From Vallitaleaceae bacterium (GTDB taxonomy: Bacteria > Bacillota > Clostridia > Lachnospirales > Vallitaleaceae), in contig JANQFZ010000026.1 in NCBI GenBank assembly GCA_028277605.1, positions 1-64,000 of the forward strand: a stretch of DNA of 64,000 bases, written 5' to 3'. A model generated the notes under the pieces. The model saw only the letters and a program-made list of their open reading frames with translations. It had not been told where the DNA came from and did no database searches. Below, one piece after another: positions 42,733-49,563 of this stretch (its first letter is position 1; each line of letters opens with the position of its first letter). A program made the position numbers and the translations under genes.

Positions 42733-43725
42733 ATGAAAATTAAACATTCTGAGTTTAAACGTATTTTAAGGCAGTATGAAGAAAAGCAATTAGCTCACAA
42801 ACATCTGCTTAAACTGAGAAAAAAAGAAATCTATCGTACCCTGCCAGAAATCGAAAGAATTGATGCTATGATTGCATCCAATAGTATCAAAACCTCATTG
42901 CTCATGATTGAAGAGCCTTTAAAGGCTCAATCCTATATGGAAAAATTAGAGGGCGAGAATCTTAAACTAAGTCTTAAGAAGCTCAAGTTACTTAGTGAGT
43001 ACGGTTATCCTAAGGATTATCTTGAACCAAAATACGACTGCCCCCTATGTCAAGATACAGGCTATATAGGTCATGAGAAGTGTAATTGTCTTAAGCAAGC
43101 CTTGATTGATGTTGCTTACGAGCAATCCAATATAAAAAACATATTAACCAAAGAAAATTTTGATACCTTTTCATTTGATTTTTATTCAAATGAAGTTGAT
43201 CCTAAGTACAGTATATCGCCATTAGATAATATTAGATTGATCCATGGTAAATGTCGCTCTTTTGTTGAAAATTTTGACTCCGCCTATACGAATCTTATTC
43301 TATATGGACGTTCTGGTCTTGGCAAAACCTTTTTATGCAATTGTATTGCTAAAGCACTTTTAGATGGTGGCTATACCGTTATCTACTTAACAGCTTTTGG
43401 TTTATTCAAGCTTTTTGAGGATTATAAATTCAATAGATCCTATGAGGATATCAGCGAAGAGAAAATAGAATCTATTTTTAGCTGCGATCTATTAATTATA
43501 GATGATTTAGGTACTGAATTAAATAATACCTTTACAAGTGGAGAGCTGTTTAATTGCTTGAATACAAGATTATTGAACACAAAGTCTACATTGATTTCAA
43601 CCAATCTTATGCCAAACCATTGGTCCGATAATTATTCTGACCGTATTGGTTCAAGGATTTTTGGTAACTATCAAACATTACTTTTCTTTGGAGAGGATAT
43701 ACGGTTAAAAAAGAAATTTAAATAG
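42733..43725 (+). CDS. DnaI/DnaC-type helicase-loader ATPase
   Basis: A 330-residue AAA+ protein. A basic coiled N-terminal part is followed by a zinc-binding group CPLCQDTGYIGHEKCNC (about 103-119), Walker A LYGRSGLGKTFLC (about 195-207) and Walker B LLIIDDLGTEL (about 254-264), with the sensor/arginine region ISTNLMPNHW. The family loads the replicative helicase DnaC/DnaB at origins. The zinc motif and length are as in Bacillus DnaI and related clostridial proteins. It starts four bases after the dnaD-like stop, so the two are co-translated. Confidence 0.85.
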   Translation: MKIKHSEFKRILRQYEEKQLAHKHLLKLRKKEIYRTLPEIERIDAMIASNSIKTSLLMIEEPLKAQSYMEKLEGENLKLSLKKLKLLSEYGYPKDYLEPKYDCPLCQDTGYIGHEKCNCLKQALIDVAYEQSNIKNILTKENFDTFSFDFYSNEVDPKYSISPLDNIRLIHGKCRSFVENFDSAYTNLILYGRSGLGKTFLCNCIAKALLDGGYTVIYLTAFGLFKLFEDYKFNRSYEDISEEKIESIFSCDLLIIDDLGTELNNTFTSGELFNCLNTRLLNTKSTLISTNLMPNHWSDNYSDRIGSRIFGNYQTLLFFGEDIRLKKKFK

Positions 43726-43728
43726 GTG

Positions 43729-43756
43729 TTGACACATTTTTAATAAGTGCTATAAT
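43729..43756 (+). promoter_or_regulatory. Promoter of tRNA-Arg
   Basis: Perfect TTGACA (43729-43734) and TATAAT (43751-43756), 16 bases apart, end 17 bases before the tRNA. Confidence 0.85.
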
Positions 43757-43773
43757 ACTACTTGTCGCTATAT

Positions 43774-43847
43774 GCACGTATAGCTCAATTGGATAGAGCA
43801 TTCGGCTTCGGACCGAAGGGTTGTGGGTTCGAGTCCTACTACGTGCG
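43774..43847 (+). tRNA. tRNA-Arg (anticodon TCG)
   Basis: A 74-base cloverleaf. The acceptor GCACGTA pairs with TACGTGC, the anticodon stem TTCGG/CCGAA encloses CTTCGGA, and the T arm is TGTGGGTTCGAGTCCTACT. The anticodon TCG reads CGA. CCA is not encoded. Its 3' end from 43820 is repeated at 45008, indicating use as an integration target. Confidence 0.95.
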
Positions 43848-43848
43848 T
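43820..43848 (+). repeat. Attachment-like direct repeat, copy within tRNA-Arg
   Basis: A 29-base perfect direct repeat with 45008-45036, starting GTTGTGGGTTCGAG. It includes the 3' part of the tRNA. Confidence 0.8.
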
Positions 43849-43851
43849 GTG

Positions 43852-43900
43852 AAAAAGGATAACGATTTTATGGGCTTTCCCAGTATCGTTATCCTTTTTA
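43852..43900 (+). terminator. Terminator after tRNA-Arg
   Basis: AAAAAGGATAACGAT and ATCGTTATCCTTTTT form a perfect 15-bp stem with an inner TGGG/CCCA hairpin. The T-run is contained in the 3' arm. Confidence 0.85.
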
Positions 43901-44055
43901 GTTTTGCTTTTTTAGGTGTTTTTTCGGTGTTTAAAGGTTCATAAATCTTTTGAAATATTTTAAAATATTTTATCTAATATATAAATACTTCCTTTTGTAC
44001 TCATTACTTCTATCCGTATAAAAACTACTGATTGATCTTAAATCCATTCTTTTAA

Positions 44056-44229
44056 GGTCTTGTCTATTTCAATAATTCAATTAATTATGTTAACACTATA
44101 CTTAATAACGCAGGATACAAAGTCATGAGAATCAAAGCTCAATATACTACTAATGCATTAAGAACAGAAATTACTAATTATTTAAACATCAACAAATCTA
44201 ATGAGACTAAAGAGATAAAGGCAAATTAG
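44056..44229 (+). pseudogene. C-terminal gene fragment in the tRNA-Arg remnant
   Basis: A frame opened only by an upstream stop encodes GLVYFNNSINYVNTILNNAG, then YKVMRIKAQYTTNALRTEI and ends KSNETKEIKAN at a TAG (44227). It has no proper start, and codon use is gene-like. An AAGGC/GCCTT hairpin with T-run at 44218-44242 overlaps its stop, as at the end of a real gene. The family is not recognised. A truncated gene of the integrated element is the likely explanation. Confidence 0.45.
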
Positions 44230-44410
44230 CCTTTATTTTTTAATTTAATTACACTGAGGTTAAGCATTAAATGTATTATGATTAGATTCCTTAGCCCAAG
44301 ATATGATTTCTCATTATACAGACTATCAAGTTGATTAATTTCATCCTTAAAAAGTGGAATTAATATCTTTTTATCCTTGCCGACTGTCACGATTGTGCTT
44401 AGATTGAGGA

Positions 44411-44470
44411 ATGTGTGAGGGCAACGCCTAAGAGGCTTTTTGCCCCCCAGCCCGAACCTAGCGCTAACGT
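44411..44470. other. GC-rich hairpin patch in the remnant
   Basis: A GC-rich stretch in AT-rich surroundings. GGGCAA (44419-44424) pairs with TTGCCC (44440-44445), enclosing an inner GCCT-AAG-AGGC hairpin (44426-44436). CAGCCCGAACCTAGCGCTAACG follows in parts. It could be a transfer origin, a replication origin or a small structured RNA of the lost element. The inner stem followed by TTTTT could also be a weak terminator. Confidence 0.4.
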
Positions 44471-44509
44471 ATTATTATGTGTAGTCTTCACTTCAGGAAT
44501 TATATCATT

Positions 44510-44691
44510 CTATAATGTTTCTTTTGGTACAGGTAGCAACCCATCATTTAATTTAATCAAATCATTTAATTCATTATAGTTTTTATCTATATCAGTCATT
44601 AACTTTGCTACTTTATTTATCAGCTCTTTTTCATCCTTTGTAAAGTTAATTACTGCACGATTTTTTTAAATCTTTGTGCATGATTTTCCAT
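44510..44691 (-). pseudogene. Small gene with A-run frameshift in the tRNA-Arg remnant
   Basis: It starts at ATG 44691, ten-base range after GGAGGAG, and reads MENHAQRFKKIVQ to a stop. The next frame continues RAVINFTKDEKELINKVAKL, then MTDIDKNYNELNDLIKLND and ends VPKETL at 44510. Adding one A to the seven-A run at about 44661-44669 restores a 60-residue helical protein (RFKKNRAVINF). The function is unknown. Small proteins of this type are frequent beside mobilization genes, but no family is recognised. Confidence 0.55.
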
Positions 44692-45007
44692 TAACTTCTC
44701 CTCCAAACATTTTTTATGACCCCAAAGGTAATCCCTGAAATGGAGATTGCAGATAACTAATAATATCAGATAATTTATTTTAGGGCAATGAAATAGAACC
44801 TACCTTCAATTATGAAAGTAACCTACTTGACAATTTATACATTACTTATATATGACGTATGAGCTAAGTTGACATTTAGCATTTAACTGAAATCAATATA
44901 ACAGTAGTGAAATGTATTGGAACGTTTGTTCTGGCGCTAATAGGTCATATCATAAAAAGAGGTATGTAAATGCCATTTTCCATATATATCTAACTTACGA
45001 CCGGAAT

Positions 45008-45036
45008 GTTGTGGGTTCGAGTCCTACTACGTGCGT
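45008..45036 (+). repeat. Attachment-like direct repeat, distal copy
   Basis: Exact copy of 43820-43848, preceded by GACCGGAAT, which resembles but does not match the anticodon-stem sequence GACCGAAGG. It is not part of an intact tRNA. Confidence 0.8.
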
Positions 45037-45242
45037 ATGAAAAAGAAAAGACAAAATATTATCTCTTACCATTAACTTATGTGTTTGTTTTATTTTGAAT
45101 AATTTGAGTTTAAAGTATCAGCTTTTAATCCTATTTCTATGCCTAAAAAAACGCCAATAATACCTTCACAAAATCGGTCAGTAACACTAAAATATTAACT
45201 ATAGCAATGAACTAGTTGTTTTTTGTTAAAGGAGTGATGGTT

Positions 45243-45854
45243 TTGAGAGAAAGTTTTTTAGAGCTACCTTACAATAACAGGGTAACTATTTTTAATGCTG
45301 GGTGTAAAGTTTTTGCCAATTATTCATATAAAAAGGCTTCAATGTCAAAAGCGGCAGTAGAAGCTGGAATTTCAAAGTCATTATTATTTTATTACTTTAA
45401 AAATAAAAAGGAATACTATTTATTTATTGTTAATCAAGTGCTTAACCAACAACACAAATTTATAACTGATACTATCATTAATCAAAAACCATATGATTTA
45501 TTCAGCATAATTATAGATATTACCAAAGTTAAACGAGTGTTTTATGATAAGTTTAACGTTTATTATAAATTACTTAAAAGAATGTTTTTTGAAAGCGAAG
45601 CAGAACTTCAAGATGATTTGAAACTTATTAAGAAAAAACAAACGTTACTTTATAACGAATTACTAAATTCAATCGATGTTCATAAATTTAAAAATAAGAA
45701 GGAAGTCTCCAATTGCTTCAAAACTCTATTGTATTGTGGTGAAGGCGTATTGGCAAATCATCCCATTGAGACTGATACAGATATAAATGCCGTCATAGAT
45801 GAATATACAAATATTATTTATTCACTAAAACTGCATTATTATTGTGAGGAGTGA
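45243..45854 (+). CDS. TetR/AcrR family regulator
   Basis: A regulator of about 203 residues. The N-terminal TetR helix-turn-helix (about 10-55) reads RVTIFNAGCKVFANYSYKKA, MSKAAVEAGISKSLLFYYFK and NKKEYYLFIV. The variable ligand domain is all-helical and Lys-rich. The start is probably TTG 45243, because GGAG lies eight bases upstream. The ATG at 45237 is only two bases from that site. It is followed five bases later by an alpha/beta hydrolase gene, so they form an operon. Its target and ligand are unknown. The pair begins 207 bases after the distal att-like repeat. Confidence 0.85.
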   Translation: MRESFLELPYNNRVTIFNAGCKVFANYSYKKASMSKAAVEAGISKSLLFYYFKNKKEYYLFIVNQVLNQQHKFITDTIINQKPYDLFSIIIDITKVKRVFYDKFNVYYKLLKRMFFESEAELQDDLKLIKKKQTLLYNELLNSIDVHKFKNKKEVSNCFKTLLYCGEGVLANHPIETDTDINAVIDEYTNIIYSLKLHYYCEE

Positions 45855-45859
45855 AATAA

Positions 45860-46675
45860 ATGGAATTTAAAGAATTTGGTAAACAGAATCAAAAAAAAGC
45901 ACTTCTAATTCATGGTGGTTATACATCATGGAGAAGTTTACGAGTACAGATTCAAGAGTTAGAAGCTGATTACCATGTATTTGTTCCATTATTAAATGGT
46001 CATAATATTAATGATAACTCTGAACTGGAGTCCATCGAGTTAGAAGCATCACAAATACTTGAGTACTTTATGGATAGAAGTATTGCTATGGTTGATATTA
46101 TCTATGGCGCTTCGCTTGGCGCTGATGTCAGCCTAGAAATATTATGTCAAGCAAATGATTTTGCAAAGTATGCGTTTATTGAGTCTGGCTCACTTGGACT
46201 TAACAAGTTAGCAGGATGGATTTTGATAAATATATCAAAATTTATTATATACAATGGCTGTAGAGGGAATAAAGTGTGTGAAAGAGTTTTAGATAGTTTT
46301 TTATCCAATATGAAAATGCCTAAAGATCTTTGTCTTGAAACGAAAAATTTATTACAGCATATGTCAAAACGGACAACTAAGAATGTACAAAAACTTGTCT
46401 GTAACTATTCCTTAAAAGAATCCATACGCAACATCAAAACTAAATGCCTTATCGTATACTCTTCAAAAGAGTTGATGTACATGAAAAAACCCTATAATAA
46501 AATGAAAAAAATGGTTGATGATATGCAAATTATATGTATTAATGATTTTTATCATGGCGAATTATGCATCGGTGAACCTAAAAAGCAGGTTAGTATGCTA
46601 AAAAATTTTATACTATCAAGTCAAAATAAGCCAAATGAGTCATGTGATTCTGTTGTAAAACAGAAAATAATTTGA
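45860..46675 (+). CDS. Alpha/beta hydrolase
   Basis: A 271-residue protein of the alpha/beta-hydrolase fold. It has the oxyanion segment LLIHGGYTSWRSLR (about 15-28), the nucleophile elbow YGASLGAD (Ser about 86), an IKTKCLIVYSSKEL strand and a C-terminal histidine in INDFYHGELC (about 235). The substrate is not predictable. The C-terminal 25 residues are polar and extra. GAGGAGTG precedes the ATG, and it is co-transcribed with the TetR gene. The regulator-hydrolase pair suggests control by a small lipophilic compound. Confidence 0.8.
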   Translation: MEFKEFGKQNQKKALLIHGGYTSWRSLRVQIQELEADYHVFVPLLNGHNINDNSELESIELEASQILEYFMDRSIAMVDIIYGASLGADVSLEILCQANDFAKYAFIESGSLGLNKLAGWILINISKFIIYNGCRGNKVCERVLDSFLSNMKMPKDLCLETKNLLQHMSKRTTKNVQKLVCNYSLKESIRNIKTKCLIVYSSKELMYMKKPYNKMKKMVDDMQIICINDFYHGELCIGEPKKQVSMLKNFILSSQNKPNESCDSVVKQKII

Positions 46676-46800
46676 ATCTATAAGAATGATTAGTTTGACA
46701 TAATAGTATTAGCTACACATTAGAGCATGCTCCCTACTCAACACTGACGTTTAAGTAGAAGTTGTGTAGCTAACGCTATTCACCCTTGGTCGTTTACTAA

Positions 46801-49563
46801 TTAGTTTATTTTTGACCTTACACTTTTATCTAGTTTTATACTGTTGAAAGTTATACCAAGCTCACGCATAACCTGTTCTTCTCTCGTATGACAGGTAAAT
46901 AATAGAATCTGACGGTTAAGCTTGCTAAGTAGTTTCAGCATATTCTTTAGCCTTTGAGTGTCATATTGAACAAAGCAGTCATCTAATAAAAAGGGCAGAT
47001 GATTCTCTTTATAAATAACATCTATAAGCCCCAGTCTTAAGCCAAAACACATCTGATCAATAGTTCCTGAACTTAGTTTACTTGCACAGACTAATTCATG
47101 ATTGATAGGGGATTGTACAAGAATATTCATATCTGGGGTTATCTTTACATTTGCATATTTTTCACTCGTAACGCTACTCATCATTTGTGAAACTTGTTTA
47201 TTTAACTCTGGTGCAAAATTATTCTGAATGTCTTTGGATATAGATTCTAGTGCTTCTGTAGCAAGTGATAGAGAAGCCATTTTATCATCCAAAGCTTTCC
47301 TTTCTTTTTGTGTTATTAGTAAATCTTGATCGATATCCACTAGGGTGCGTATTGCCTTTTCTTGAAGATGTATCTTTTCCTGTACACCACTCATATGATG
47401 ATGGATATCTATGATTTGATTATTGACACCTTCTAGAGCATCCTTAATTTCATCATAAGTTAAGTAAGTAGGAGTTTCTTGTTTGTTTTTATACGCTTTT
47501 AATTTATTTTCTAATTCTTCAAGTGTATCTTCACCTAATAAATTCTCTTTAACGTATTGTTTATTTTTATGTTCTACTTTCAAGGCTTCCAGTTCATTCT
47601 TTTTCTGCTTAACTTCTTCAATTTTTATAGTTACAGGAACATCAATAACTTCATAAAAAGCAGCAATTGACTCTTCTAGCTCTTGATAGTGTTGTGTACT
47701 CTTATTTATATTGTCTTCTGATATAGCGCATCTTTTTTTAGTCTCCATGAGTTCTTTTTGAACTTGTTTGTATATATCATATGCTTCTTTGACAGCTTCA
47801 ATATTTTTCTTTGATATATGCGTGGTATGCATAACTCTATCCAGCCAGAACTTAAAATAGGTTGCTTTTTCATTTAACGATTGTTGCTTATCTTTTCTTT
47901 TATCACATAATAATTGATAATGCTTTTTAGTGTCTTCTAGTAAAATCTGATGACTAGCATGTTTATCATTTAACGCCTTTAACGCCTCTTTAGATTGACA
48001 TTGATAGTGCGCTAATAGCTCTTTTTGCTTGTTTTCTATTAAGCTGTAGGTATCGTTCCTCTCAGCTTGCACTAGCTTTATTCGCTCTATTGTTTCTTCA
48101 TAATTACGAACATTTTTAACTGCCTTTTGACGTTGAATACCACTTAAAACACCTAAGGCAAGCATCCCAACAGCTATTGCTGTAAAACTACTATTCGTTA
48201 GTAGAATACTTGCAACCACAGAACCTATAAACAAACTTATTAAAATGATTAAGGCGATCGTATAGCGCTTCATGATATTTCTTAGAATATGAATCTGTGG
48301 TAAAAGCTCTTGCATTTCATTTTCTTTATTTTCAATAGACATTTCATTTTTTTCTTTTTCTAGCTTTTCATAGTCCGTTAAAGCTTGTCCTATATTCTTA
48401 TTGCAATGCTTACGATAAAATTCCATTCGTGATTCTAACTCTTGAATTTCTTTTTCTAACACACTAGCATCCTCTGATAATTGTTCATAAATAGAATAAA
48501 CGCCCAATATGGTTTCGATAGACCTTGCTTCAGGCTCAGCAAAATAGGGTTGTAAATCCAATTGCTTATACTGTTCTTCATATTCTAGTTTAAATTTTTG
48601 AAGCTGAAGCTTTTTTTCCTCTAGCGTTTCTTTAAGTAAAGAATGATAGGTTATGGTCTCTAGAATCGTATCAACTTCTTCTTGAACAATTCTATCTAAT
48701 GATTTAAGCTCCATCATTCTATCCTCAATAGTTACGAGAGTCTTGTTCAGATCTACTATTTTCTTGTATGTTTTTTCATATTCCGTATGTTTGACCAGTT
48801 CTAATTGTTCTGTATAATCGTTTTTATTCTGATTAAGACTTATTAACTCTTTATTGTACCTATTTAACTGCTCTTGTAAATCATAAATATTCTGCCATGC
48901 CACTTGGGATTTTTCTTTTTCCTTTTTTAAATGATTGATTTTCACAACGAGCATACCATAAGTTGATTTCTTTTTTCTGATACTGCCAATAGCTTCTTTT
49001 TTTTCATTGAGTTGTTCTAACACTTTTTTTATAGATATCTGTTCATCTTTACTTCTACTAAAATTAATCAGTCGGTCTTTAACCTCTTTGATTAAAGCGT
49101 CATTAGTTTTACTTCCAAGCTGCTTGATACTAATGGTATTCGTAAAAGAAGTTTGATTTAACTTAAAATGCTTGGTATGTGGTTGATGCAGTTTTATAAC
49201 TGGATCATAGTCAAAAAGATGGGTAATTTTCTCACCTGTTACATTATCATAGATCTCTACACTTTCATTTCTTTTGAGAAAATTTCTCTCAATTCTATAC
49301 TCATCATTTTCATGCTCATAAATTAGAATTCCTTGAAACTGACTTTTATTGTACCATGGCAAATAGCTCTCATAGTCTTCTGTAGTTCTTCTAGACTTTG
49401 CATAGGGTTTATAAAAACCATAGAACATCCCCTCAATAAACTTATGTAAAGTAGACTTTCCCGCTTCATTATCACCATAGATTATATTGAGTCCTTGGGT
49501 TAGATTTAACTCCTTGTTCTGAAATTTACCAAAACTACTTAACATCAACTGTTTAATATACAC
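46801..49563 (-). CDS. YhaN-like Rad50/SbcC-type ATPase
   Basis: A 920-residue AAA ATPase with split nucleotide site: Walker A IYGDNEAGKSTLHKF at about 29-43 and the C-terminal signature KLSSGTIDQMCFGLRLGL followed by Walker B LPFLLDDCFVQYD. Long coiled coils (about 180-430 and 500-750) flank a central hydrophobic pair (LIILISLFIGSVVASILL, then AIAVGMLALGVLSGI), as in Bacillus YhaN. The start is GTG 49563, directly after the stop of the partner nuclease gene. With that partner it should form a Mre11-Rad50-like complex acting on DNA ends, possibly at the membrane. The substrate is unknown. Confidence 0.85.
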   Translation of the reverse strand: MYIKQLMLSSFGKFQNKELNLTQGLNIIYGDNEAGKSTLHKFIEGMFYGFYKPYAKSRRTTEDYESYLPWYNKSQFQGILIYEHENDEYRIERNFLKRNESVEIYDNVTGEKITHLFDYDPVIKLHQPHTKHFKLNQTSFTNTISIKQLGSKTNDALIKEVKDRLINFSRSKDEQISIKKVLEQLNEKKEAIGSIRKKKSTYGMLVVKINHLKKEKEKSQVAWQNIYDLQEQLNRYNKELISLNQNKNDYTEQLELVKHTEYEKTYKKIVDLNKTLVTIEDRMMELKSLDRIVQEEVDTILETITYHSLLKETLEEKKLQLQKFKLEYEEQYKQLDLQPYFAEPEARSIETILGVYSIYEQLSEDASVLEKEIQELESRMEFYRKHCNKNIGQALTDYEKLEKEKNEMSIENKENEMQELLPQIHILRNIMKRYTIALIILISLFIGSVVASILLTNSSFTAIAVGMLALGVLSGIQRQKAVKNVRNYEETIERIKLVQAERNDTYSLIENKQKELLAHYQCQSKEALKALNDKHASHQILLEDTKKHYQLLCDKRKDKQQSLNEKATYFKFWLDRVMHTTHISKKNIEAVKEAYDIYKQVQKELMETKKRCAISEDNINKSTQHYQELEESIAAFYEVIDVPVTIKIEEVKQKKNELEALKVEHKNKQYVKENLLGEDTLEELENKLKAYKNKQETPTYLTYDEIKDALEGVNNQIIDIHHHMSGVQEKIHLQEKAIRTLVDIDQDLLITQKERKALDDKMASLSLATEALESISKDIQNNFAPELNKQVSQMMSSVTSEKYANVKITPDMNILVQSPINHELVCASKLSSGTIDQMCFGLRLGLIDVIYKENHLPFLLDDCFVQYDTQRLKNMLKLLSKLNRQILLFTCHTREEQVMRELGITFNSIKLDKSVRSKIN

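Follow-up and report, generated by a model that had tools for sequence, protein, structure and literature searches.

Organization of the locus

The sequence analyzed here, hereafter the window, comprises positions 1 to 64,000 of contig JANQFZ010000026.1 of an anaerobic Vallitaleaceae bacterium (assembly GCA_028277605.1), whose genome consists of 86 contigs. A dnaC-like gene (42733-43725) is followed by tRNA-Arg with anticodon TCG, an interval of about 1.2 kb, a TetR regulator gene, a hydrolase-like gene, and then sbcC and sbcD on the opposite strand. The names dnaC, sbcC, sbcD and "hydrolase-like" were assigned by reading the sequences. The tRNA gene, which is the integration target discussed below, is intact (43773-43848, forward strand; ARAGORN, Rfam 67.7 bits). 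A promoter of the form TTGACA-16-TATAAT lies ahead of it (43729-43756, forward strand), matching 12 of 12 consensus letters as a consensus match only; apart from this perfect match, the promoter scan stayed at chance level. The tRNA itself was the only RNA feature above threshold when the interval was scanned with Rfam.

The repeat and the displaced tRNA copy

The last 29 nt of the tRNA gene (43820-43848) recur without mismatch at 45008-45036, downstream and in the same orientation, 1,188 bp away start to start. An earlier note on this DNA had reported this repeat, and sequence comparison bore it out. The note had also likened the flank of the distal copy to a changed anticodon stem, and the similarity proved even longer, extending over 52 nt at 88% (43806-43857 versus 44994-45045) and starting sharply at the first base of the anticodon loop. 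When the window was shuffled 100 times with dinucleotide composition kept, no shuffle contained two matches at three mismatches or fewer. The genome-wide search suggested in the note returned only the two known copies and no third (86 contigs, 28-nt pattern, up to three mismatches).

The tRNA-side block is attL-like and runs from the anticodon loop to the 3' end (43806-43848, forward strand), its start being taken from a 47-nt exact repeat in relative G010. The displaced 3' fragment is attR-like (44994-45036, forward strand) and overlaps an element-side CTAACTT that begins at 44990. ARAGORN reported no tRNA gene at the distal copy, which scored 16.5 bits with the Rfam tRNA model against a gathering score of 29, and its fold was no better than that of shuffles (z -0.18). 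Conservation between the copies is uneven. All 29 nt of the repeat are kept, but 5 of the preceding 14 differ; of the six mismatches between the two tRNA copies, five fall in 43809-43819 (distal 44997-45007). The probability that all five differences would sit in the anticodon part is about 0.002-0.003, calculated by hand.

Integrase remains within the interval

The interval had been described as holding no integrase and only broken genes. The latter was right, as only pseudogene pieces were seen. The former holds for an intact gene, but pieces of a tyrosine-integrase pseudogene are present at 44384-44250 and beside the tRNA. Directly after the tRNA lies an element arm (43849-43930, forward strand; blastn) that is common to relatives G017, G020 and G004. 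It carries the inverted repeat GGATAACGAT...ATCGTTATCC and a T run, which look terminator-like by eye and were not listed by the terminator scan. The DNA after the tRNA matched that of G017 at 77.8% over 108 nt (E 7.6e-16) and that of G020 at 73.6% over 129 nt (E 2.4e-16) by blastn. Within the G017 match and in the same frame are the last codons and stop of the pseudogene (43931-43957, reverse strand), reading FKRFMNL-stop where G017 reads YFKRMMNL-stop; at the protein level alone the similarity is weak (E 0.11).

The body piece of the pseudogene encodes 45 aa (44250-44384, reverse strand) and corresponds to residues 117-161 of the G017 integrase, with 58% amino acid identity (E 3.9e-11, tblastn against the whole window). 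It matched 17 of 26 subject sequences at E ≤ 0.01, and all 17 were integrase loci. The distance from this piece, which ends at 44250, to the last codon (43934) is about 316 bp in the window against about 470 bp in G017, measured by hand, so part of the gene was deleted; the remainder is unrecognizable. The order and strand of the pieces agree with those in intact elements. A functional tyrosine recombinase has the catalytic residues R, K, H-x-x-R, H/W and Y. No catalytic part was found in the interval: the similarity of the body piece ends before the GLRxxE region, and the HLFRHTFA region was not found. No other element gene was recognizable within the interval, and 44430-44990 gave nothing significant.

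Several further candidates were discarded. The peptide HIPQSKHNRD (44415-44386) resembles an integrase motif expected at a later point in the gene and was rejected, being out of order and not significant (E 0.11-0.14). A weak integrase-like match after the displaced fragment (45093-45055, E 0.82-1.5) was not taken up. Descent from one of the four intact integrases of the same genome was also rejected; only the one on contig C81 is kin (E ≤ 1e-40), and it sits at a different tRNA.

DNA beyond the displaced fragment

The DNA from the displaced fragment to the presumed ancestral end of sbcC (45037-46830, no strand assigned), an end placed by eye from C-termini, holds the TetR regulator gene (45216-45854, forward strand) and the alpha/beta-hydrolase-like gene (45860-46675, forward strand). 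It is probably a separate, second insertion, judging from the absence of both genes from the corresponding interval in relatives. The sbcC reading frame seems to extend about nine codons into this segment. The idea that the two genes form a recurring cassette was not adopted after a search with the hydrolase alone, in which 28 of 295 genomes of the order, the genome itself included, had a match at E ≤ 1e-8, the best other match being 39% identical.

The same locus in relatives

All 59 relatives searched had a match to dnaC, and 29 of these loci were scanned for tRNAs. tRNA-Arg(TCG) stood next to dnaC in 14 of the 29, giving 15 loci with the window. An intact integrase of the window's family lay beside the tRNA in two of the 15 (G017 and G004), directly after it and reading towards it. 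The two integrases are 73% identical, and that of G004 is assigned to Pfam PF00589. Neither locus had a detectable displaced fragment; that of G017 is cut by a contig end. A displaced tRNA fragment above the null was found in three of the 15 loci, namely the window, G010 and G021. The 47-nt repeat of G010 is exact; it starts at the anticodon loop, extends beyond the tRNA and abuts the sbcC stop. In G021, the fragment at the dnaC locus scored 51 against a null maximum of 30.

The interval between the tRNA and sbcC varied from relative to relative. It was 6 bp in G008, which represents an empty site, and 40 bp in G042. In G020 the interval is 156 bp and contains an integrase tail only, recognized by DNA match. 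G013 and G002 had other inserts with no detectable fragment. Five loci (G055, G007, G016, G012 and G001), in which sbcC was out of reach, were left out of the empty and filled calls. The dnaC/tRNA-Arg/sbcC interval is thus a recurrent integration site. The comparison with relatives proposed in the earlier note came out in its favor, with intact integrases in G017 and G004, fragment-bearing or att-flanked intervals in G010 and G021, and the empty site in G008. The opposite pattern, an interval shared by the relatives and free of repeats and elements, did not appear; the intervals differed. Since no same-genus relative appeared in the searches, no fresh empty site was seen for the window's own species.

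Two of these loci were observed further. In G010 (locus L047, 69-1726), about 1.6 kb between the 47-nt repeats holds small repressor-like ORFs without an integrase, and is a candidate mini-element or fresh deletion. In G021 (locus L042, about position 2551), the tRNA-Arg fragment is worn, has the element-side AACT and has lost its acceptor end; it lies inside a 7-kb interval.

Attachment-site sequences

Before the anticodon loop, the window's tRNA and its nearest kin read GG, while the element ends read AA. The element-end sequences are CTAACTTACG in the window, CTAACTTCGG in G010, GTAACTTCGG at the G021 dnaC locus, CTAACTACGG in C81 and contig C13, GAACTACGG in the G021 inovirus and locus L074, and AAACTACGG in locus L073. 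The window and all seven of these related tRNA-Arg sites (G010, G021 dnaC locus, C81, C13, G021 inovirus, L073 and L074) have the element-side AACT before the core, although C81 and C13 hardly count as independent, being near-identical over the core. The second A is not diagnostic everywhere because the tRNAs of some relatives read GACTTCGG.

The 3' anticodon stem of the distal copy, CCGGA, is the one found in the tRNAs of G020, G017, G004 and G010, while the stem of the window's own tRNA is TTCGG/CCGAA. Because the fragment matches the relatives' tRNAs and the living gene differs, the fragment seems to preserve an earlier form of the tRNA, the gene having since changed both sides of one pair.

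The integrase family and filamentous phages

A match to the integrase at E ≤ 1e-40 was found in 8 of 392 genomes of the order, the genome itself included. Twenty-one integrase-bearing loci were examined, 20 of them distinct (L067 and L079 are the same). A Zot-like ATPase lay beside the integrase in 12 of the 20; among the others, several loci are truncated at a contig end. Of the 12 positive loci, five supplied the sequences of the search model and so match it necessarily, and the match in L068 is weak (E 6.7e-10). Pfam PF05707 was called in C81, L066 and L067. Most of the other integrase family members found adjoin genes of filamentous phages (inoviruses) and target tRNA-Arg(ACG) or tRNA-Lys. 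Away from its dnaC locus, G021 has a phage-like gene set with a long coat-like protein, a Zot-like ATPase, a replication-like protein and the integrase, the coat and replication roles being a reading of the sequence.

The contig C81 of the same genome (L055, 7941 bases) encodes a Zot-like ATPase (PF05707, E 1e-14), the only PF05707 hit in that genome, and an integrase 44% identical to that of G017. It contains the 3' half of tRNA-Arg(ACG) flanked on either side by element DNA, an arrangement that a circular form or tandem copies would give. No terminal overlap of the contig was found, so C81 is probably one of these two forms, but incomplete. The copy of the tRNA-Arg(ACG) half on C13 is taken as attR because it has chromosomal DNA on one side, with an MgtE-like gene assigned by reading.

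The tree, built from full-length kin (the piece in the window is not long enough to be placed), put the G004 and G017 integrases of tRNA-Arg(TCG) beside the tRNA-Arg(ACG) phages (support 93/88), with the tRNA-Lys group apart (support 100/99). The integrase of G035, also beside tRNA-Arg(TCG), grouped on a long branch with Dulem virus 51, so the TCG target probably arose more than once. Separately, locus L103 in a Muribaculum metagenome-assembled genome (8536 bases) has an integrase and a Zot-like gene very close to those of Lachnospiraceae in a Bacteroidota bin; this placement is probably a binning error.

The top phage record for the integrase is annotated as Inoviridae. The link to inoviruses rests on the wider integrase family, because no Zot-like gene is present in G004, which is the best complete relative, and the G017 contig breaks off within the element. 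Given that most other family members adjoin inovirus genes, we lean slightly towards the window element having belonged to, or derived from, a filamentous-phage lineage, at a little better than even odds, the window itself keeping only integrase pieces.

Interpretation of the interval

We consider the interval to be the decayed remnant of a small integrative element inserted at tRNA-Arg(TCG), with a probability of about 0.88. The repeat, the order and orientation of the parts, the integrase remnants, and the empty and occupied sites in relatives were all observed directly. The repeat, the remnants and the sites in relatives support what the note had proposed, a remnant of a tRNA-Arg-integrated element. 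The element would have entered the tRNA gene by means of its own tyrosine integrase, with strand exchange in or near the anticodon loop, a position suggested by G010 and other members. It would have carried a copy of the tRNA 3' half, thereby restoring the tRNA gene and displacing the original 3' half to the far end (45008-45036). The element would then have lost most of its DNA, leaving the two attachment sites, the tRNA-side arm with the integrase tail, the integrase body piece and unrecognizable AT-rich DNA.

Simple ageing does not explain a perfect 29 nt beside a badly worn anticodon part and integrase. It may be due to gene conversion between the two copies or to the site having been used again later. 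Another reading takes the att-flanked intervals of the window and G010 (about 1.2 and 1.6 kb) as non-autonomous mini-elements moved in trans by related integrases. In its favor, short, integrase-less, att-flanked intervals do occur at the same tRNA in two genera, the G010 repeats are exact, and C81 carries an intact related integrase. Against it, the integrase debris in the window points to decay, and the two intervals share nothing beyond the att sites at E 0.01. The reading is improbable. Its more specific form, in which both intervals are satellites of clostridial inoviruses mobile in trans and the 29 nt were kept by continued integrase use, is a shade less probable still. A further reading, in which the tRNA-Arg gene was duplicated in tandem and the distal copy decayed without any mobile element, is very improbable. 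The weak covariance alignment does span the whole tRNA length, and where the 5' acceptor strand would be expected there are 7 nt similar to GCACGTA; but the similarity begins sharply at the anticodon loop, the left flank has the element-side motif of related att sites, integrase remnants lie between the copies in the correct order, and G010 shows the same arrangement with an exact repeat.

Within a single bacterial family, one tRNA locus has been used repeatedly, with intact elements, worn remnants and empty sites among its members. The integrase family to which this locus is tied serves filamentous phages, and its target has changed among tRNA-Arg(ACG), tRNA-Arg(TCG) and tRNA-Lys. Apart from that, the remnant is a genomic fossil and its study is ordinary genome archaeology.

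Comparison with known systems

The titles and abstract openings covered by a literature search did not name the window's locus. In tRNA-gene islands, a restored tRNA with a displaced fragment is the hallmark, and anticodon-loop sites form one class (PMC4383910). The window shares with the Islander islands described there the restored tRNA, the displaced 3' fragment and the anticodon-type site, having an intact tRNA with a same-orientation 3' fragment downstream. The Islander method also requires an integrase ORF and at least 2 kb (PMC4383910); the interval has pseudogene pieces only and measures 1,188 bp start to start. An island finder of this kind would filter out remnants of such shortness. 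Inovirus prophages are described with att repeats in tRNA genes (PMC6813254). The 45-aa piece belongs to an inovirus-associated integrase family. Six-frame pieces of the interval gave no match to the Zot (Zot/pI-like ATPase) genes of the searched loci, and no significant match was found to the rolling-circle replication protein of G004 or to loci holding such genes.

Among individual elements, that of G017 (Vallitalea sp. isolate McLGI.32, JAOASG010000020.1) has the same tRNA, the same side, the integrase-tail arm at 77.8% and the integrase body at 58-62% amino acid identity, but its integrase is intact (317 aa) and the element is cut by the contig end. The G004 element likewise has the same tRNA and arm, and its integrase of 322 aa is intact and starts or ends about 64 nt away from that tRNA; it differs in that 8.0 kb, including cargo and a weak Rep_trans-like gene, separate the tRNA from sbcC, and in having no displaced fragment that could be found. 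The C81 element has the same integrase family, adjoins a tRNA-Arg 3' half and shows the element-side AACT, but carries a Zot-like ATPase and other phage-like genes and targets tRNA-Arg(ACG) rather than TCG. Dulem virus 51 (PP511381.1, Inoviridae), whose recombinase is 33% identical to the G017 integrase, encodes ZOT, a replication protein and the recombinase on the same strand, and two hypothetical genes separate ZOT from the replication protein; unlike the window element, it is a complete phage, and it is distant. Both tRNA-gene islands and inovirus prophages with att sites in tRNA genes are already known, as these two reports describe them, and the interval in the window is a degraded element of this already known sort.
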